Assembly: GCA_964023275.1 (NCBI GenBank)
Contig: OZ029915.1
Coordinates: forward strand, 126,501-190,500
Reading direction: 5' to 3'
DNA length: 64,000 nucleotides
From: Norana najaformis
Taxonomy: Eukaryota; Annelida; Clitellata; Crassiclitellata; Hormogastridae
Made by a program: the position numbers and the translations under genes. This document shows positions 6,001-47,647 of the stretch, piece by piece. Positions within the stretch are counted from its first letter, which is position 1. Each line of letters begins with the position of its first letter. A model generated the notes under the pieces. That model saw only the letters and a list, made by a program, of their open reading frames with translations, had not been told where the DNA came from and made no database searches.

Positions 6001-9000
6001 TATTACTTTTCGCTTTTTTCTGAAGTATTTTAGCAATAACTGCAGATAAAACGCTGACACAGAGCAAGATCACAGATCAACTGATACCTATGGACAGTGA
6101 CCAACCCACAAGCCGACATAACACGATCAGTAAGGAAAAGCCAGTGGAAAGAAGCAGCGAGAGAGGAAAAGAGCAAAAAGAGCAAAACAAGGAGTTAAAC
6201 GACTGACTGAGAAGAGCAAGAACTTTAGTGGCGCTGGGAATCCACCAGGTGCATTTCTGGATCGGAGGCAGATCTTCTGGTTTTGGCGGGAAAAGCCGAC
6301 ATGAGATGAACCTCTGAAGCTTATGGATCACATCCAACAACTTAGACGAGTCAATTCTAAAGACATCAAAACACAAACACGTCAAAACAACACCAAGATG
6401 CGTTAATCACCAGGGAATGCAACCGACTTCACACACGACACCACTCGTCTCATCCTAAACTATTCTTTGTCTGTCTCAATTGCTTGGCTTAACCAGCATC
6501 TACCACTGACTCAAATTACGTTTCTTCCGATCCCAATCTCCCTCCAGAATTTCCAGTCTCTTCCTGCCTCCCTGTCTCCATCCATCCATCCATCCATCCA
6601 TCCAAACCCACCCACCCATCCATCCATCCATCCATCATCCATCCATCCATCATCAGTTAGCCTGCAGTATCATTCCATGTATCACTTGCCTACTTCTGTC
6701 TCTACCTGAATTACCGTCGTAACAAAAGCGTTCAAAATCTCAGTGGCTGACATGAGGGAGACAGACATACGGAGACGTAGACAGATGAAGACAGACAAGG
6801 AGACTCACTTTTTAAACCAGTGAACTAGGAAATGGTGGTTGTGGTCGGACAGCGACGCAATCTGACGCAACAGATGCGCAAAGACAACATACGTCGGAAT
6901 GCTACGGAACTGCGGATTCTTCAAACAAAACACGACATTGACAGAACCTAACAAGTGACAGACAGACAGATAGACAGACAGACAGACACAGACAGACAGA
7001 CATAATCTGTAAAACAAAAGGAGACATTTGGGATTATTTCAGGCAAAAGAAGTTTCTTACTTAAATTTGTCAACAGCTGATTAGATGAATATTACACTGG
7101 CCAACAGAAAAAATTTTTTTTCTTGTTGCCTTCGGTTTTAGACCTGTTCTTGGGGTAATTTTGGGCGCTGATTCAGAAAATGTCATTGGATCGAGTGCAT
7201 CAGGTCTAGTTTCTCAGATATCGTCGATTTTGTAAAGAAAACCCAGTCCACTCTTTAAACGATGTCTTTGACAAAACTAAAATGTCATAATAAGCTTTAT
7301 TTATGGCTAATTATATTTCTTGCTGAGTCATATAATGCCTACATCCTTATAATGTAAAATCAGCATATCTTGCCGCGTGCTGAGATATTGCTGATTCAAC
7401 GAAATAACTATTCCGTAGCCTACAGCTTACTCAGCACTAAATTCATGACCTCATTTAGAATTTATTTGTGCTTATACAGCGTTTCATGGTTTCGAACTAT
7501 GTAAATAGATTATGCTGAAGTCAGCATTTATAGCCTATATAAACCGCCTCCTGAAAGCTAGAGCAGCCGCAGTCGTCTTAGGGCATGTTAAGAGTTGGTC
7601 GCAAGAACAATCTGTGAATGTGAACATTAAATAACTACATGTTCTTACTATTTTTTAGGTTAGTCACTTAATTCCTCAGATGCGAACATCCTTAAGGTTA
7701 TGGCTACTTCCAGACGGAGCTGCATTAACCATCCAGACATATTCTGCTACATTTGTGGGGAATACACACTAAAAGCAAACAGGAAACCGATTTCTGAGTT
7801 TGTAAAAGGAGCATATGTAGGTTATTTTGGTGTCAAACTTGGAGATCAAGATGAGCAATGGGCTCCTCATACAGTATGCAAAACTTGTATTGAACAATTG
7901 CGCCACTGGACAACTGGAAAGAGAAGCTGCCTGAAATTTGGTGTACCGATGGTTTGGAGGGAACAGATAAACCACTTCGACGACTGTTACTTTTGTATGG
8001 TTAATATCATAGGCATCAATCGAAATAATCGTCACAAGTTGTCTTACCCTGATATACCTTCAGCCAGAAGACCTGTTCCGCATTCGGATATTGTACCAGT
8101 TCCACCTTTTCGCGAACTACCTCAGCTCTCAGACGATGACACTTGCATGTCCAATATCGGACAAGATGACGAAAGTGAAGAAAGTGGGGGCAGTGACAGT
8201 GATTTCCAATCAACTTCACACAGTGAACGTTTTGACCAAAAAGAGTTGAGTGATCTGATCAGGGACTTAAATCTTTCCAAAGAGTCCTCTGAATTGCTTA
8301 CGTCCAGACTAAAGGAAAAGAATGCACTTCAGCCTGGAACGAAAATTACAATTTATAGAAACAGAGAAAAGGATTTGCTGCCATTCTTTACCGAAGACAA
8401 CAACCTAGTATTCTGTAATGACATCAGCAACTTATTGAAGAAAATTGGTCTGTCGGATTACAGCCCAGATGAGTGGCGTCTTTTTATCGACAGATCAAAA
8501 CGTAGTCTGAAATGTGTGCTTTTAAATAACGGCAACAAATTTGGTTCTATTCCAATCGGTCACTCCACCAGGATGAAAGAAGAGTACAATGCCATCTCTT
8601 TAGTACTGGAAAAGATAAAATACAAAGAACATCAATGGGTAATTTGTGTAGACTTGAAGATGGTAAATTTCCTCCTTGGTCAACAAAGTGGCTACACAAA
8701 GTATCCCTGCTTTTTGTGTCTTTGGGACAGTAGAGCCAAGCATGAACATTGGACAAGAAAAGATTGGCCTTCGAGGAAAGACATGGTGGTTGGAGCTCAA
8801 AATGTAATCAAGGAATCTTTGGTGGCACGAGATAGGATCATACTGCCACCACTACATATAAAGCTAGGCCTGATGAAACAATTTGTCAGGGCTTTGAATA
8901 AAGAAGGTTCATGCTTCGAATACATAGTACACAAGTTACCAGGAATTACAATGGAAAAATTGAAGGCTGGAATCTTCGATGGTCCACAGATCAGGCAACT

Positions 9001-9878
9001 TACGAATGACCCACTTTTCATACCATCAATGAATGAAATCGAATCTTGTGCCTGGTCTTCCTTTGTTCTTGTAACTAAAAATTTTCTTGGCAACAAGAAG
9101 GCAGACAATTATGCACAACTAGTAGAGGATATGCTTCTTCATTTCAACAAGCTTGGCTGCAACATGAGCATTAAAGTCCATTATCTCCACAGTCACTTAG
9201 ATCGCTTTCCAGAGAATCTTGGTGACTTCAGCGAAGAGCAAGGTGAAAGATTTCACCAAGACATCAAAACAATGGAAATCGATATCAAGGAAGATGGGAT
9301 GCACACATGATGGCAGACTATTGCTGGAATATTATGCGCGATTGTTCCGGCAGATGCCACACTCGGAAATCGTACAAAAGGAGCTTCTTCGGTGTCGATT
9401 GACTTGAAATTTTTATAACAAATTTGTTCTGTTTGGTATCATATAAGTACAGTTTCAGGTACTACCATTTTCTTTTAAGTATTTGTATTATTATGTTTAT
9501 TTAGTGTATCACATAATAAATTGAGCACTACATAATTATACCTATAGCCTTATGTTTTATGGGCGAGCAGAGGCAAGGACTGGTATATGGCATAATGTTC
9601 TATATCTCGAAAACTAGACCTGCTGGGAGAAAACTGGTGCCTTTTCTGGAATCAGCAGGTCAAATATACCCAGAAACAGTTCTAACATTTGAGGCAACAA
9701 ATTATGTGTTGGCCATTATTACACGAGGTTTCTGAAGACAAAGGCGGTGCTTAAAGGAACAAGTTTTTTCACTGGAATTCAGAGAACTCAAAGAAGTCAA
9801 TGAAATATTTTACAACAGTTCAAGAAAATGATTTGTTTTAGTGGTTCATGTAAATACCTCTTGCGATGAAACTGCATG

Positions 9879-16807: not shown

Positions 16808-19800
16808 ATGAACGAGCAGCCATCATTGAGCAGCAGTCGTTCTAGCCATCTGGAGGGACAGCAGCCGCAGCAGAAGCCATGCACTGGAAGAACTACTGCG
16901 TCTGGGGGCCTCGAACGTGACAACTCGAACTTGCGTCAGAAACTGCATGAACTGCGTGAAGAAAAGTCACGCCTTATTTCAGAGAATCACAGCCTGGTGA
17001 GCGAAGTTGAAGAAGTGAGATTTGAACTTCACCGCACAGTTGGTCAGCTGAAGCTGATGCAAGAGGCAGCTGAAAAGTACAGGATCAGAGCAGAGGAGCT
17101 GAACAGAGCTCTTGTAGAAGCAAAGACTTCAGATGAACTGAGGGAGAGTGAAAGAAGAGATTGGGAGAACAGATACAAGAACTGCAGTCTCCAGCTGACA
17201 GAATCCAATTCTCTGATTCACCATCAGACGGAGACCCTGTTATCTCTAAAACAGGAACTCAGTGACTTATTGGATTCAAAGAAAGGTGCCGAAGGTTGGA
17301 CTCTTGTACAGTTGGAAGACTTGTTTTAGTTTATTAAAGCGTTTAATTAGCCATTAATTGTTTTATTTGTTTTCTTTTGTATTTCCTATTAATTTTCTAT
17401 TAATCAGACTGCTTGTGGTCTGATCCTGTTGTACCATTGCTGCACTCAAATGCATTCATGTTTTATTTGGAATATCATCCTTGGTCCCTGGAAATTGCTT
17501 TGAATGAATTCTGTGAACTTAATGCATTTTTGGCTTCCAATTCTGTCTGTCATTAGATTCAACTAAAATGGTTTCTCATCCAAAGGGCCATAAAGCGGTT
17601 GACTGACTAAAGTAGATATGCAAAACAGTATGCTGTTGTTTGCTGTTCATATAGCGTACAACATTTCAGTGTAGTGAACTGTTTTGAATTTCAGTCTAAT
17701 GTTGAATGATTATTTTTTATGTGCAGCCAACCGTGACACGGCTTTGGCTGCTGCGGAACAGATGCGCCAGTCATTCGTTGACTTCCAGAATCGACTTCAG
17801 TCGCGACTCAGTTCTACGGAGGATCAGCTGAGCAGTTCGTACGATGAACGAGAAAAACTGTTGGCCGATCTCGTGAAGCGATGTCTGGAGATTGAAAACC
17901 TACAGAAGCTTCAGGAGCAGCTGAGGACAGAGATCGCAACGGAGCGGAGTTTGCGTCAGTTGGCGGAGACACAGAACTCGGAGCTGCTCATTCAGCTCCG
18001 AGACTACACTCCACAGGTTGAGAAGATTGAGGCAGACATGAAATCCTATGAGCTGCTCAAGAACGAGAACCAAGACCTCAAAGTCGCTTTGGAAGAGAAA
18101 AGCCAGAAAATGAAATCATATGAAGCAGAGCTCAGAGAGAATCGGATGCAGTTGGCCGACTTGGAGTTGCTGGCGCAGAAGTTGCAGAGGAATATTCTTA
18201 CAAGTTTAAAGTCATCTGAGATAAGCGAAGCAGTCGGGGTGCAGTCCGTTGTTTTAGCTGAGGATGCAGAGGCTGATGGTAGGCAGCTGGAAAATGCAGC
18301 TGTCTTAGAAGAACTGAGGTCAAAGCTTGTTCTGGCTGAAAAGGAATTGCAAGAGCTGCGGCAGAAGAATGCAAGTGGTAATAACAACGGTGGCAGTCAG
18401 GCGTTAAATGGTGCATGCAGTGAAATGCAAGAGATGGGAGGAGTTTTCCAGTTAGAAAGTAGGATGAGCATAGATAATTGGGAAGCATCGGTGCAGAAGC
18501 TGGAAGAGGAACGACAGCAACAGGTGGCGCTGATTGCCTCCCTCGAAAGGAAGATTGCCGACCTGGAAGTGGTCAAGGTCTCGCTTGATGCGCAGTTGAC
18601 ACAGCGGAATTCTCAGATAGACGAGATTCAGCGGGAAATGCATGAGCAGTCCGTGAAGGCAACCATGACGGAAAGAGCCCTTCGCAGGACTACGCTGCAG
18701 ACTGCGGCTCTTGAAAGGCAGTTGGATGAGAAGTCGGCACAAGTGGCAACCCTTGTTTCCCAAGTAGATGACCTGGAAGAAAGCTTGAGAATGAAATCGG
18801 ATGAGCTGAAGAAACTGGAAAAACAGATGGAGCAGAGAGTTGAAGAAGATGTCAGAAACTGTGAAGTCACAAAGCAGATGAGTGAGAAACGATGCAGGGA
18901 GTTAAAGGGGCAGCTGGAGACAGCAGAGAGCAAGCACCGTGCAACAATGCACCAGCTGGATCAGGTGGAAAGGCGTTCCATGTCTCTTCAGCAGACATTG
19001 AATGAGATGAACATTGTCATGAATACCTTGAGGCAGGAAGTCCAGCAGTCGGCCAGGCTGCTTCATGAGCAGAAGGAACAGTCAGACAAAAAGATCCAGC
19101 ACCTGGATTCTGTTGTTCAACAGTCGAAGGAAGCGCTTAAGGCGGCCACAGCAAAACTGCAGAATGCCGAAGAACAACACGGCATCGAATTCAGTAACGT
19201 TGCAAAGCGAGTGTCACATTTGGAGGAGGAGATCCGGAAGATGACAGAGGCTGTGGAAGAGAAGAACGATTGTCTGGAAATGATGGAAAAGGAGCTGAAG
19301 GAGAAGCAGGCCATGCTTCTGGAAAGCTCTGCAAGAATTGAAGATCTTGAAGGTCTTCAGAATAGACTGAGGCGGGAGAAAGAGGAGAGAGAGCAAACTC
19401 TCTGTCAAGAAACATTGGGCCTGAAAGTGCTGTTGGAGAGTATGGAGAAGAAGCTGAACACGGCCACAATGGACATTGAACGCCGGGAACAGCAGGTCAA
19501 TGATCTGGCTAAGACGATTCGAGACCTGCAGCTGGAAAAGAAGAAGGTCATTGATGAGCTGGGCAACGAACTGAAAGATACTCTGAAGCAACTAAAACAC
19601 GAGAAGAGAGAAAACGAAAGACAGTCTGCAGAATTAGTTTCTCTTCAAAGGGAAGGTAAGCACCTGGCTGAGTTGCTGAAAGAAAAGGAGGAGTCGACAA
19701 AGGGCCTGCAGCTGCAGCTGAGTAACCGTGATGCTGAACTGCAGGAGAAATCACAGGCCATGAAGGACCTGTTTGCAGAACATGAGAAGCTGAAGCTGGA

Positions 19801-21850
19801 AGATGAGGCTAAGGATAGAAGACTGACCGAGATGGACAGCAGACTGAGAGGCAGGGAAGCAGAATTCGAGCAGTGCAGAGATCAGCTGGAGTCGCTTCGG
19901 CAGGAAATGCGAAGATGTCGGGACGAACTGTGCAGCCGGCAGAACGCGGTGGACGAACTGAACCAAGAGCTGGAACAGCGTCAGTGGGATCTTCAACAGA
20001 AGGCAGCACAGGTCACTCAGCTTGACATGGCCATGAAGGAGCACATGGCCGAGTCCGAGCAGCGTGTTGTGCGCCTGGAGGCTGCTCTGAAGAAGTCCCA
20101 ACTGGAGATGAATCAGCAGGGAAGACAGTCCAATGACCTGACTCAGCAGACGAAGACTCTGATGGCTGCACTGAGGCAGAAGTCACAGCTGGTCCATGAG
20201 TTGGAGCAGGTGATAAGGCAGCTGAAGGCAGAACTAGATGCAGAGAGGGATAGAGCTCATTCTCAGAGCACAGTGATCGAAGCCATGGGTCTCGAGAGAC
20301 AGGGACTAGAGCTGACCAATCGGAGATTGCAGGAAGAACTGACAAAGGCGTCGGATCAACTGCAGACTCTACAGGAGCGACTGGACAACAGCGAACAGAG
20401 GCTCGTTGCTACGGAAGCAGAATTTGACAGAACAACCAAAGCCTTAGCAGATGCCCGTAATTCCCTTCAGTCGCAGAAAATGGAAATGCAGAAACTGCTG
20501 GAGGCGTTGGCCAAGGCAGATGAAGATCAGACTGGACTCAGTGAGCATCTTAAGCGTTCTGAAAAAGAGTACCAACTGCTGAATGACCAGCTCACCAGTG
20601 AACTGGCTCAGTTAAGGAATACGCATGTGGCTGCACAGTCTGGTCTGGAGGAGGAGTTGGCCAGCCAGCAGCAGAAGCTGAAGGCTACTGAGGAACACCA
20701 ACAGCAGTTGATGCTGGAACTGAAAAGAACGAGTCAGCAAGTGAGCAGCCTTCAGATGGAGCTGGATGCAACGCGAATGATCGCGAGTGCCACCAAAGAG
20801 ACGTCGCTGATCAAGGACGCTGAGATCGCTCGACTGAAAGCAAGAATCAGCAGCATGAGCCGGAGTCAGCTGACTGCTGCCAGGGAAACGGGAAGCGTCA
20901 CTGAACCTAGTAATGTGACAAATGGAAGTTTAGGTCAGGAGCAGATGGAGATGGGCAGTTTGGATTTTCTCTTGTCCAGTGAAAGAGTTCAAGGGCAGTG
21001 TCCACTGGATGGGCTTGGAAATCAGTTGGACACTCTACTTAAGAATGACCTTGCAATGGCTGCTAAAGATTTGTCATTCAGCAGCGCTGCTGCAACTGGG
21101 AACAGCACGCAAGTCGGAACTGGAAAATTTTCAGCTGCATCTTCGAGTAAACCAGTGCATTCTTCCACCTGGGAAAACAGTGTAATATCTTCCGCTGAAC
21201 ATGAACTGTTCAAGGTAAGAAGTATGTCGGAAGATGTGGCTCCTCGCTCCAGTGCAATGCCTTGCCTGGAGTCATACTTTGCCATCGATGATGACAACCC
21301 TGACTCCTTGCAAGCAATGTGGAACGAACTTCAAATAGGACAGGTGAATGCGCCACTTGTGGGCCTACCTCACTCCTGCACTGACTCCAACAGAAGGCAT
21401 CTTCAAGACAGAAGCTGTTCAAACACATCAAATGGCGGCGCCACTACGTCGACTGGCACCTGTGACCCCAGACGAAGTGGCACGGCAGCAGCAGCAGCAA
21501 CAACTCAGCGAAGTGATCCACTTCGGTTGGGAGGCATCGTCGAAGAAAAACTTCGCATTCAGAATCGCATCAAGGCCTTGATTGGATATAAGGAACCAGC
21601 GAGAAAAACGAGCTCCAAGTCTTCTGTGAGTTCAGACTCTACTGTAAAGTCTTCGATCAGTAGTAGTAGTACGTGTAGAGTCAGTTGTCGACAACCGAAG
21701 TTGCGTCGCGCGGGTGCCAACTCGCGTGGAGACCGTGTGGAGACAGCAGTTTCCCATTTTGGCAAATCTCTTAATTCTGTGGAATGTAGAATCCAAAACG
21801 AAAGGCAGATGGAAATGTCAGAAGATACAGACTGCTCTCTGTCAACGTAG
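16808..21850 (+). CDS. CCDC18: CCDC18-like long coiled-coil protein
   Basis: Two coding exons, 16808-17285 and 17727-21850, joined in phase (AAAG|gtgcc ... gtgcag|CCAAC), give 1533 residues. Human CCDC18 is about 1450. Residues about 41-75 (LRQKLHELREEKSRLISENH, then a FELHRTVGQLK-type run) align with the human CCDC18 segment holding NHSL and FEL, as I recall it. The next block, RDTALAAAEQMRQSF, also fits. From about 40 to 1080 it is almost continuous heptad-rich coiled coil. The last 400 residues are Ser/Thr-rich, with EEKLRIQNRIKALIGYKEP near 1435-1455. The first ATG follows an in-frame TGA at about 16785. Vertebrate CCDC18 is reported at centrosomes/centriolar satellites; this role is inferred here. 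It could be another long coiled-coil protein, but the N-terminal match favours CCDC18. Confidence 0.85.
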
Positions 21851-35249: not shown

Positions 35250-38200
35250 GACAATGGTAATTTTCCTCTCTGTCCCACTTTCTTTTCTGTTCATATGTTT
35301 TTGTTTGTGTGTGAAGAGCATGCCATGTCGCTGGGAACTCCTCCGCTGCTCACTGGCAAATGCTCACGAGACATTAAGCTCGAACTGGAAAGGTGTTCAG
35401 GCGACACCTTCAAGAAATCCATTGCTCTTTTCTCCGAGTTGTTTGGCGTAAGCATTCAGATTGCCTGTGAGATGTTAAAGTGATTTGGAGATGTCTAACA
35501 GTATAGAGTATCTGTTTAAATACGAATCGTAGGCTTAGAATTCTGAAGTCCCTTTGGAAATGCATTACATCACTGAGTGACAAAATTTGGTTTGAATTAC
35601 ACAACGATGGTCAGGTGATCAATTCACCTTCTTTGACAAAGCCTTTCTCCATCCAATCTGTATCTGAAGAAATCTTGTTGACTTCAAATTCCTGGATTGT
35701 TTGGCTAAATACACAAAGACGATGACAGGCAAAGAAGAGGACTTGCTTACGCTTCCTTACATGTTTTCCTTGACAGTGTATTGTGAGGTGCATGAGGAGA
35801 GAAACCCAGTGAAACGTGTGTCATCGGAATATTCATTCCTTAACTTATGGCAGTCTGGTTTTACTAAACGCCATTCAACTGAAACCGTTCTACATCTCTC
35901 TACAACAAACTTGTTTCTGCCGTCTCTCACCAACAAGTCTCTTGCCTCTGCCTCTTTGATATTTCAGCAGCCTTTGACACCGTCGAACCACGACATCTTG
36001 CTCTCAAGACTTTCAGCCTGGTTCGATTTTACTGATACTGCTCTACTCTGGATACAATCCAATCTCTCCTCTTACTCTTTCTCTGTTAAAACATTGGAAG
36101 CCTCGTCCCAATCATGCCCTCTCACTTGTGGAGTTCCACAGGGCTCTGTTCTAGGACCTCATCTGTTTATCCTCTACACTACCCAACTCAGTTCACTCGT
36201 AAAAACAACCAATGTCGATCATCACCTCTGTGCTGATGACGCTCAGCTGTTCATCTCTTTCTCTCCAAACTGTTTCAAAGACTCCATAGATCATCTTCTT
36301 CGTAGGGTTAAACAGATCTCCTCCTGGATAACTTCTAATCTCCTGTGCTTGAACTCATCCAAAACCGAATTCATACTTATAGGCTTACACGACCAGCTGA
36401 AGAAAATTTCAGATCCATCTGTCTCTCTCAGCCTGGACTCTGCTTCCACACACACCTTTAACACTAACTCTTCAGTCCGCAACTTATATGTGATTAACGT
36501 CAGTTTCTCTGATCACATTTCCTATGTCTCCCACTCTTGCTTCGTGCATATCCATGACCTTTGCAGAGTCCGCCCTATGCTTGACTTTAAAATTGCATCA
36601 ACCATCGCCACATCCATAATCCATGCTTAATTAGATCACAGATCCTATCCTGACTTCAATTCTTCATCTTATCTCTCTTTCCGCTTCGGTCCCAAACATC
36701 ACCCACCATAACTGCCATGCTGTCTCTCTGCCTGAGGATGGATATTGACCTGGAACCGAACACTTTTGCATACCAATTTTGTTTTGACTGAGTGCCTGTG
36801 AATAAGCTGGCCCCTGTGACTTGGCTTTCGTTGGGTGCTGTAGAAATGTCAGGATTATGATTATGATTACTTGCTGCATAGGAAATTCCTCTAGACCGAT
36901 TACTGCTGCTGATGATGACGACGATGTCGACAATGATGATTTTGGTGATGACACCGATGATGACGACGACGACGATGAAGATGCTCTGACGAATATCATC
37001 ATCTCTCATTGCTATATAGCCAAAACTAACTTCTTGCAGACATTTATATAGCGCCTTTTCTTCTGAAGCTGATGGTGGATGACTGTTTCTTTCAGAAGCC
37101 GGAAGGTTGTGCCAACCTGTGGCAGTTGGTCAGTGTTAGCCTTGGACAGGACATGGACGTCCTTTCGTCTGCATCCTATCGCAGGGCAATCGTCCACTCG
37201 AGACACATCGTCACCTTCAGAACGGTCAGCAAAATAAATCTCTGTATTGTCAAATCTCCTGCTCTACTGATTGCTTGCAGTGAACTAGAAGTCCTGGGAG
37301 GGGGGTCATGATATGCAGAGGTATTAGTGGTGGTAGAAGGGCTGCCTCTCTGTCTCTGTGGACTGGCCTTCTGGTAATTGACCTGACTGTGGCTTCTTTT
37401 CGGTGTGCCGTTGGTTGATTCCTTCTGCATTAGACACCGGCTTTATAGAAGTTACTAATTAATAATACTAACAATTTGTTTTTAAGACAGTAGTCACAGC
37501 ACTTGTTGTTTGAATGAAATATCATCTGTGTCTTGCTGAGTGTCTCAGAGCTCTCTGTCTAGCTTTGTACAGTTGACCTTCTTTTGAAATATCTCTGTAG
37601 ATTGTGTGTGGATCTGTTGTGATGTCTGGTTTTCTGTATGTGGATCAGGCTGAGGCACAGGAGCTGGAGATGGTTCGGGTGTCAAAGTTTGGTGCTGGTC
37701 TTGGGGCTCCGAGCCGAGAGGATCGACTGAGAGAGGCGGCAGAGCTCAACCTGAAGCTTGGAAACACTCAGAGATACTGCCAACTGCTCGTCGAACTCGG
37801 AGAGGTCGGTCTCTCTCTGTTAATGTACTTTATGAACTGTTCGTCTTGGTTTCGTCTGACTGCAGCAAGGGTGTGTCTTCCGACAGCAATCTCTTGTTCC
37901 ATATCTGTATCTACATAGCTATTTATACAGCACCTGTTAAGAGCCTGTGACTGTGAAATGAATGTTGTTGCACTGTGGCTAAGTGTTGTCTTTTTATCTG
38001 TTGCATTTCAGTGGGACAAAGCTCTGGCAGTTGCTCCATCGGTATCGCTCAGCTACTGGAAGAATCTCGTGCTTAGGTGAGCTGCTTCTCATCGAACCGG
38101 ATGACTTTCCTCTGACTCTACAGCAGCACAACAGACACAGAAGACAACGGTTCCCATTAAGAAATGCATGACAGAGTGATTTTCTCTCGTCTGACTTCCA

Positions 38201-45140: not shown

Positions 45141-47647
45141 TTAGCTGTCAAAGCAAGACAGGAATTTGAAAAGCGTTGGTAGACTGTTGGGTGAGTCGAG
45201 ATGAATGTCACCGGATTCTATAGATTTCTTTAACGACTGCTGCTTAGCCATGATCTTCCGCCAGACTCCAGTCGTCGTAACGATCCTCACATCGAAGACA
45301 CCATCCTGCTCTTCATTCTCCTTCTGCCTGTCTTCCTCCGCTATCCCTTCGTCTGCTGATGCTGCTGCTGATGCAGGAACCATCTCGACGTCGAGAACGG
45401 AATAAAAGATGCGCAGACGATATCGCTCCCTGGTGTCCGTGAAGTGAACGACGGTCGTCAGATTGACGTCGTCGACGTCCTCGGCCTTGACCCTGTACTT
45501 CATGAGGTCGAAGAGGTCAGTCATTGGAAGCCTTTCGATCAGTTGAGTATGATCGACGGTCCAGTCGATGAGTCCATGGTCGTTTAGAATGGTGGTCATG
45601 TAGAAGTTCCTTGCGATGGGATTCGTCTGCTGGGCGGCTAATCTCCTCAGGACTTTCAGCCTCATTTCCTCAGCGGCCTTGTTCTCTGGATGAGTCCGAA
45701 AGAAGTGGGAGACGAGCTCGAGCGACCACTGCAGCTGTCCTTCCTCCAGAGCCGCCTCAGCCTCTGCTAGAAGGCGTTCGGCGCCGATCATCTTCACCAT
45801 CCGTTGAGACCGTTCACTTGGACTGAGCGGCAGAAGGTCCACAGGGTCCCCGCTGAACCAGCCGACGTAGTTCTCGTAGATGCCCTTCGACGACCAGACG
45901 GTTGTTCCGTAGAACTGCTGGAGGTAGCGTTGCGATGCCAGAGACCCAGGCAGTTGCTTCACCCGGGAGGCCACTTCGTCCGGATGAAGTCCGCGGTTCA
46001 TGTGCCTGACTGTCTGGTCGTGGACGTACTGGACGGCGGCCATGTAGGTCGTCAGAATGTCGTAGATGCGTTGACGCCCGGACACAGGCTGCGTGTGGCT
46101 CGGAACAAGATACTCGGCGCCCAGGTCGCGCATTCGCCTGAGCGATTCGTGCCAGGTCATGGAGTTACGCGGTGGAGTACCGCGAATGGCGTACAGATTG
46201 GGAAAGGTCTTGTATATGTCGTCTGCCGGCAGAAGGACTCGTTTCTCGGGCAGCCAGACGCCCATCTGGTCCTCGGTCTCGCCTGGAATATGGATGAACG
46301 TGAGGTTAAGACCCGCAGCCTGCAGCGACACCTGCTGCTCCTCGCCGTAGACGAGTCGGTTCGGTTGCAATGAGACGATCGACTTGGACCCATCTATGTC
46401 GAGCCTTGGACCGAGGCCGCTGTTTGCGATGTGCTTCGGGCCCAGTCGAACACCCATCTGATGTATGACTCCACGAAACAGCTTCGGTCCAGCGACGTGA
46501 GTCTGTCGGACGAGATCTGAGAAACTGTGGTAGGCCCAGATGTCTGGTGGATTGGCAGCGTCTTCTATGAATCCCTGCCAAGACAGTTACACGGTTTATG
46601 GCCATCCGTAACAGCATCCGTAACATTCTATGCACGAAGTCACATGCTGTATGACGAAAACACACTGCTTCCCTTTCTCTTTCTTCTCTTCTTCCTCCCC
46701 TCTCTAGCTCCACCTAGCTCTCCGTCTTTCCACCTTTCCCCGTCGATCATTTACCTACCCTGATGCCGAGTAGGCCAGGTTCGTGAACTGCATGACTTGT
46801 GGTATCAGAGTTGATCATGATATCATAGATCGTATACCTCGGCTCCGAATACGTGGTCGCCGTGGTTGTGAGTGAAGACGATGTCGGTGATTCGCTTCGT
46901 CGACTGTTTGCGAAATTCGGTGAGGATCCTTCGAGCGGCTTCGACGCTTTCTGTCACGTCAACGACTACTGCTCCCGCCACTCCCTCCAACAACATCGAA
47001 TTACCCAAGGCAAATCCCACGGCCACGAACACCCCATCCGTCACCTGTCAATCCCTCAATGACAAAATCAACCAATCAGTCAGTCAATCAGTCAGTCTGC
47101 CTGTCTGTTGGGCCTTCGAACGAACGAACAAATACCAATAATAACAGCAACAACAATAACAACAAACAACAACTCGAACAAGACTTCTTGGGAAAAGGTC
47201 TGATATCAGCGATCAATCATTTTTTTAGTCATAACTGAGGGATCGCCTAAAAGAGAATAACGATATTGATATTACTAATGATAATATAGGCCTCCAGGTC
47301 CCCGATCTTCCAAGCAGACAAGTAGACATGTCCCTGCAGCGTTACCTTGGTAATATCAGCATCCCTACAGCGTTACCTTGCTGACATCAGCATCTCAGTA
47401 GCGTTACCTTGGTGACGGTCGGCGTGTCGAACTCCTTGCTGTGGTCAGCGAGCGACGGCTGAACCTCGATGCCGGACAGAAGGTCGTCTGGCGAACAAGC
47501 AGAGAAGGCATCCTTCAGCAGCAGAGCCCCTGAGGACGACTGCGGCAGGTGAGACACGAGAACCGATCCCAACAGAACGGAAACTACGACGAGTCTCTGA
47601 AGACCCAACGATCGTCTCCACGGGTCGCTCTGTCGTAGTCGCGACAT
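45141..47647 (-). CDS. alkyl-sulfatase-like metallo-beta-lactamase, membrane-anchored or secreted
   Basis: Exons 47647-47408, 47044-46838 and 46574-45141, all phase 0, give 626 residues. The N-terminus has a basic segment and then a hydrophobic stretch (RLVVVSVLLGSVLVSHL, about 21-37), a signal or signal-anchor. Exon 2 carries the metal motif HNHGDH (139-144). Exon 3 has IPGETEDQ (about 246), FPNLYAIRGTPPRNSMTWHE (about 273) and LVPSHTQPV with H309, all hallmarks of the SdsA1/BDS1 alkyl-sulfatase family. A helical dimerisation part and a C-terminal SCP2-like domain follow. The family hydrolyses alkyl sulfate esters using two zinc ions; substrate here is unknown. Length fits the family (about 620-660). 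The ATG at 47647 was chosen as the first in frame with the hydrophobic segment. Confidence 0.9.
47341..47408 (-). repeat. 31-bp tandem triplication of a splice donor
   Basis: The exon 1 donor context caag|gtaacgct recurs at 31-bp spacing. gtaac begins at 47407, 47376 and 47345 (minus strand), each preceded by aag and followed by a similar agatgctgat-type sequence. Confidence 0.85.

Follow-up and report, generated by a model that had tools for sequence, protein, structure and literature searches.

Positions 7095–9715 (plus strand) of the window, by which we mean the whole stretch of 64,000 nucleotides analysed here from the annelid Norana najaformis, very probably hold a now-damaged copy of a Chapaev3-group DNA transposon, a young cut-and-paste element that is autonomous and CMC/Transib/RAG1-related. 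The family to which this copy belongs expanded very recently, in a burst made up mainly of full-length elements, more than 1,000 of them nearly identical. An inverted-repeat transposon with its own protein had been predicted at this locus from the sequence of the window, and the approximately 1,500 copies, their 3-bp target-site duplications and the empty sites described below bear this out. The filing under Chapaev3 rests on the published description of that group, namely its ends, target signature and motifs, and the kind is already known. Copies of this sort might explain widespread 'uncharacterised' proteins as transposon-encoded, as the prediction also proposed, and transposases of this description have been published as Chapaev3 (PMC4079192). 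The type itself is ordinary, and it is the burst that stands above the ordinary in its size, its youth and its full-length character.

Ends, target sites and empty sites

The family was defined from 69 aligned loci, of which 30 were ranked by score and 39 were sampled independently of score. The sample consists of the first 40 stretches with exact left ends on contig C1 (L031–L070), chosen against ranking bias, and the tandem locus L043 is excluded from its counts. Both ends were reached in 58 of the 69 loci; copies open with CAC and close with GTG, and in the 30 top-ranked loci the unit measures 2,625 bp, from CACTGGCCAACA to TGTTGGCCAGTG, which replaces the 2,619 bp first proposed.

An exact 3-bp target-site duplication flanks 48 of the 58 two-ended copies (20 of 28 ranked, 28 of 30 sampled), set against a mismatched-pair control that already matches at 3 bp in 25% of cases because the targets resemble one another. 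Among the same 58 copies a match at 5 bp occurs once, and matches at 4, 6 and 7 bp do not occur. The duplicated letters are TAA in 19 and TTA in 16 of the 48 (35 of 48 for either), preceded by A in 43 and followed by T in 45. The 10 of 58 copies lacking an exact 3-bp duplication could be explained by mutation or by exchange between copies.

Sites carrying a single target, a search for which was proposed with the original prediction, were found. The L039 insertion sits inside a dispersed repeat, and next to L015 another copy of this repeat lacks the insertion and continues across the site with a single TTA. The flanks of L039 were joined with one TTA into a query of 157 bases with the junction at base 132. 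Of 386 candidates 40 places were scored, and every one of them is uninterrupted DNA that matches the query at 95–97% identity from base 1 to base 152 or beyond. The joined query favours unoccupied places, and therefore this result shows the form of the empty site and not the proportion of sites occupied.

The transposase

The protein encoded by intact copies is 567 aa long. Residue numbers and window coordinates (all plus strand) are given together here. The N-terminal region (7745–7996) is rich in cysteine and a candidate for zinc binding; its three CxxC pairs (at residues 16, 60 and 96) recall the Chapa zinc domain reported in Chapaev3 (PMC4411706). The region is followed, in order, by D264 (LFID, 8489–8491), D318 (CVDLK, 8651–8653), the C(2)C motif CFLC (residues 337–340, 8708–8719), the LH motif (residues 385–386, 8852–8857), the H(4)H motif HYLHSH (residues 494–499, 9179–9196) and E516 (GER, 9245–9247), the three motifs being named as defined for Chapaev3 (PMC4079192). 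D264 and D318 are the putative first and second catalytic aspartates and E516 the putative catalytic glutamate of a DDE triad. The same order of motifs also occurs in 22 of 10,000 shuffles, a figure that applies to a pattern drawn up after the protein had been inspected. Two single-sequence structure models, with mean pLDDT of 34.2 and 39.3 too poor for a fold search, both place their strands and helix as beta-beta-beta-alpha-beta, as in RNase-H order, and faintly hint at an RNase-H-like fold.

At E values up to 1, Pfam offered only zf-AD (17.4 of 28 bits) and DZR_2, both below their cut-offs, and no transposase family; a PDB sequence search of the ORF had no match at E ≤ 1, NCBIfam gave a single chance match (E 0.095) and no family, and neither PHROGs nor the phage search matched. 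Peptide patterns detected no relatives in viral contigs and four matches in prokaryote contigs, none of them upheld by tblastn. The degenerate pattern GERFHQDI occurred in three viral contigs without significant tblastn similarity to the ORF (best E 0.22), and a second degenerate peptide pattern occurred in no viral and no prokaryote contig. A pattern for divergent kin, using the other Phe codon, located six places, at three of which the surrounding codons are those of the family itself. The remaining three use alternative codons for PCFLCLWD (G000:C4:16112064, C3:7545643 and C16:3393807) and are likely older relatives; the one of these three that was read, L074 at the C4 place, has decayed, with 51% identity across 120 aa, and retains both aspartates and CFLC.

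Classification

In the defining source, Chapaev elements have 5'-CAC/GTG-3' termini and 3–4-bp duplications, and Chapaev3 is distinguished by a TWA duplication between A and T, by C(2)C, LH and H(4)H motifs, and by a transposase that is mostly encoded in a single exon (PMC4079192). The family presents CAC/GTG termini, TWA duplications in their A/T context, the ordered motifs and a single coding exon. It resembles the Chapaev3 elements Merrow, Garfield and Conan in termini, target and all three motifs, and differs from them in detail: Merrow is 2,451–2,455 bp long in two lampreys compared with 2,625 bp here, Merrow and Garfield have two exons as opposed to one exon of 567 aa, and Merrow copies are listed as >254 and >249 in the two lampreys compared with about 1,500 near-identical copies in the present genome (PMC4079192).

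On a wider scale, Chapaev has been grouped with EnSpm, Mirage and Transib/RAG1, and C(2)C and H(3–4)H motifs between the second D and the E are described for EnSpm, Mirage, Chapaev, Transib and RAG1 (PMC12730594). The family is thus like EnSpm/CACTA and Transib/RAG1 in its CA..TG ends and in the position of both motifs (PMC12730594). Mouse RAG1, for which D708, C727/C730, H937/H942 and E962 are reported, has the same spacing of 19 from the aspartate to the first cysteine (D708–C727, here D318–C337) and a spacing of 20 from histidine to glutamate (H942–E962) compared with 17 here (H499–E516; PMC4914335). The DNA binding, catalysis and chemistry of the transposase are inferred: the 567-aa cysteine-rich protein would bind the inverted ends of about 150 bp, and fill-in would yield the 3-bp duplication. 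Transib duplications are 5 bp long, unlike the 3 bp found here.

The family might instead belong elsewhere among the CMC/CMCT branches, close to EnSpm/CACTA or in a sister branch without a name, and have 3-bp duplications and CAC/GTG termini in common with Chapaev3 by chance, a reading that we regard as improbable. Its appeal lies in the left end, since CACTG is EnSpm-like, and in the nature of the Chapaev3 filing, which was made by description and not by alignment of transposase sequences. The CMCT lineages moreover share C(2)C and H(3–4)H and have mostly 5'-CA..TG-3' ends with duplications of 2–5 bp (PMC12730594). What tips the balance towards Chapaev3 is the A-TWA-T signature (A before in 43/48, T after in 45/48), together with the LH motif and the single exon, all of which are published Chapaev3 features (PMC4079192).

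The original prediction drew, among other features, on an exact 8-bp direct repeat, and the letters tattacac are indeed present on both sides of the window copy (7090–7097 and 9717–9724), as they might be around a hAT, P or Zisupton-like element, whose target duplications are 8 bp long. The repeat is not the target duplication, however, because the last three letters of its left copy, CAC, already belong to the element (two flanking bases and TTA precede them), and the duplication in other copies is 3 bp; the right copy begins one base after the start of TTA. No 8-bp match was found at any of the 30 ranked loci, a number that includes L014, whose ends were not parsed, compared with 48 of 58 copies at 3 bp. 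This leaves an 8-bp element with a negligible probability at the window, and for the family the 3-bp duplications of the copies rule out the hAT, P and Zisupton superfamilies. A PIF/Harbinger-type element is hardly credible either: a 3-bp TWA target is what such elements have in common with the family, but their ends and transposase motifs differ from the CAC/GTG termini, C(2)C and H(4)H seen here, and the Pfam search (E up to 1) gave no transposase family and no match to a Harbinger-type HMM.

Copy number, age and condition of the copies

The window's own genome (608,420,607 bases in 17 contigs) was searched with 7098–9712 as the query. Of 1,199 first-look candidates 40 were scored, among them the window copy itself; each of the 40 shows 99–100% identity, and 38 of the other 39 scored copies cover query positions 1–2614 or 1–2615. 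The exact 15-base left end occurs 1,348 times genome-wide and its reversed control not once, so that the copies with shared ends looked for in the original prediction are there in abundance. A 29-base core of the ORF, allowing at most two mismatches, occurs 1,546 times (control 0), and a right-end pattern of 11 bases and a spacer occurs 1,419 times (control 113). By these pattern counts the family numbers near 1,500 copies. That the locus is a host gene or a domesticated transposase, for which the open 536-aa frame in one piece might be taken to speak, has next to no probability, given that about 1,500 copies lie dispersed, with their ends, duplications and empty sites, and that the ORF variants look neutral (see below); for the family as a whole the dispersed copies rule it out.

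Mean pairwise identity is 99.15% (range 98.67–100) among 28 sampled full-length copies and stays the same when the duplicate L050 is dropped. L050 (C1:7808404–7811404) and L049 (C1:7783617–7786617) are 3,001-bp stretches that are 99.7% identical with both flanks included and lie 24.8 kb apart; they are one segmental duplication and not two insertions. In 27 copies 203 of the 239 variant sites are singletons. For each of the 15 pairs that the six common variant sites form, all four combinations of alleles are present, a pattern suggestive of exchange among copies or of recurrent change. Coding singletons comprise 86 N, 39 S and 8 stop changes and coding shared variants 21 N, 4 S and 1 stop, for expected fractions of 0.708, 0.253 and 0.039, respectively; the ORF variants look neutral.

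Of the 39 sampled copies, 30 have an intact right end. An ORF of at least 560 aa is retained in 16 of the 39 sampled copies and in 27 of the 30 ranked ones, and is combined with an intact right end in 12 of the 39 (12 of the 30 with that end). Uninterrupted 567-aa ORFs were counted in the 19 plus-strand rows of the 30 ranked copies, leaving out the 11 minus-strand rows, and 17 of the 19 have one. L041 and L062 have internal deletions, L040 is rearranged, the sampled left end of L045 stops at 80 bp, several sampled copies have no right-end sequence, and the remaining ones are full length. The sample demands an exact left end, and therefore miniature forms with changed ends may escape it; genome-wide, ORF cores exceed exact left ends (1,546 vs 1,348). 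At the excluded locus L043 (G000:C1:4020008–4030000) four left ends are spaced 2.3–2.4 kb apart, the 5' part of the element and its flank being tandemly repeated in units of 2,305 and 2,378 bp (99.4–99.7%), followed by one nearly whole copy.

Two copies, L065 and L066 (C1:13879461 and C1:13896410), are identical across all aligned letters, lie about 17 kb apart in opposite orientation, and differ in their flanks, each with its own TAA duplication. They are probably the product of a very recent local jump, and as a sign of recent movement the pair is as good as one assembly allows.

The window copy

The window copy begins with CACTGG at 7095, preceded by A and the left copy of the target duplication, TTA, at 7092–7094, and ends with GGCCA at 9715, followed by the right TTA at 9716–9718 and a T; the letters are read from the sequence, and the length and A-TWA-T context of the duplication are taken from the family. 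Its inverted repeats are imperfect and occupy 7095–7250 (plus strand) and 9565–9715 (minus strand, identified from the local alignment and the copies, and lacking the final GTG). Aligned locally, 7090–7289 and the reverse complement of 9525–9724 score 86, compared with maxima of 63 in 1,000 random window pairs and 50 in 1,000 shuffles, and the inverted ends predicted earlier are consequently real, with their length revised from about 120 to about 150 bp. The predicted single intronless ORF stands as well (7700–9310, plus strand, one frame, 536 aa), as do the internal TATA box and the AATAAA, both by reading: TATATAAA at 7536–7543 is the probable core promoter of the transposase gene and AATAAA at 9515–9520 a probable polyadenylation signal (both plus strand).

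The element had been called complete-looking, and in this respect the prediction does not hold, for the window copy is damaged: its final GTG is gone and its transposase is shortened. The ORF measures 536 rather than 567 aa because a 1-bp deletion shifts the frame near 9279 (approximate place 9270–9282, plus strand, from frame comparison with the copies), and the last part of the transposase is missing. Given the lost GTG, the copy is probably immobile. It differs from the majority of the 28 sampled full-length copies by 21 substitutions and those copies by 4 to 18, a comparison that favours the latter since the same 28 copies set the majority.

A single assembly fits either deletion or overwriting of the GTG. 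Among the approximately 100 listed right ends (all on C1) of the 1,419, no other GTG-less end followed by TWAT was found by eye, and therefore the state of the window copy is not common. L033 and L052 have their right ends cut short with TAA and then T at, or at most one base from, the break; L027, L045, L051, L054 and L069 have no duplication at the break, and L038 and L053 carry small changes close to a right end that is otherwise there. L051, truncated at element position 2273, is bounded by a direct repeat (75 columns, 89%) that abuts the element on the left and lies 6 bp away on the right. In the window copy, L033 and L052, three cases and too few for proof, the breaks may have been left by one-sided cleavage and repair, because they fall exactly between element and duplication. 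A bolder and less likely reading is of a Chapaev3 family that is moving now or was until very recently, by way of hundreds of coding-competent copies and not miniatures, exchanging segments between them, with some right ends trimmed flush to an intact duplication as scars of one-sided cleavage and repair.

As to the surroundings, the minus strand carries a HECT-domain exon at 2343–2741 (Pfam HECT, E 6.3e-07), and a position of the element within an intron of this HECT gene, which may be HECTD2 as originally proposed, is consistent with this exon on one side of it. Elsewhere in the window, a 320-aa open stretch at 35668–36630 (plus strand) matches the reverse transcriptase family RVT_1 (E 3.7e-11) and is a probable retrotransposon remnant, and a 481-aa frame at 45141–46586 (minus strand) matches alkyl sulfatase dimerisation and C-terminal domains and metallo-beta-lactamase and is probably a host gene. 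A 1,390-aa open frame at 17678–21850 (plus strand) appears coiled-coil-like by eye and matches no Pfam family at E ≤ 0.001.

Significance

Chapaev3 falls in the lineage that also contains Transib and RAG1, and we know of no Chapaev3 transposase that has been purified or tested in cells. The family, some 1,500 copies strong at close to 99% identity and with the ORF kept in 16 of 39 sampled, offers natural material for studying how this branch cuts DNA, and its exact definition guards against mistaking its ORFs for host genes in annotation.
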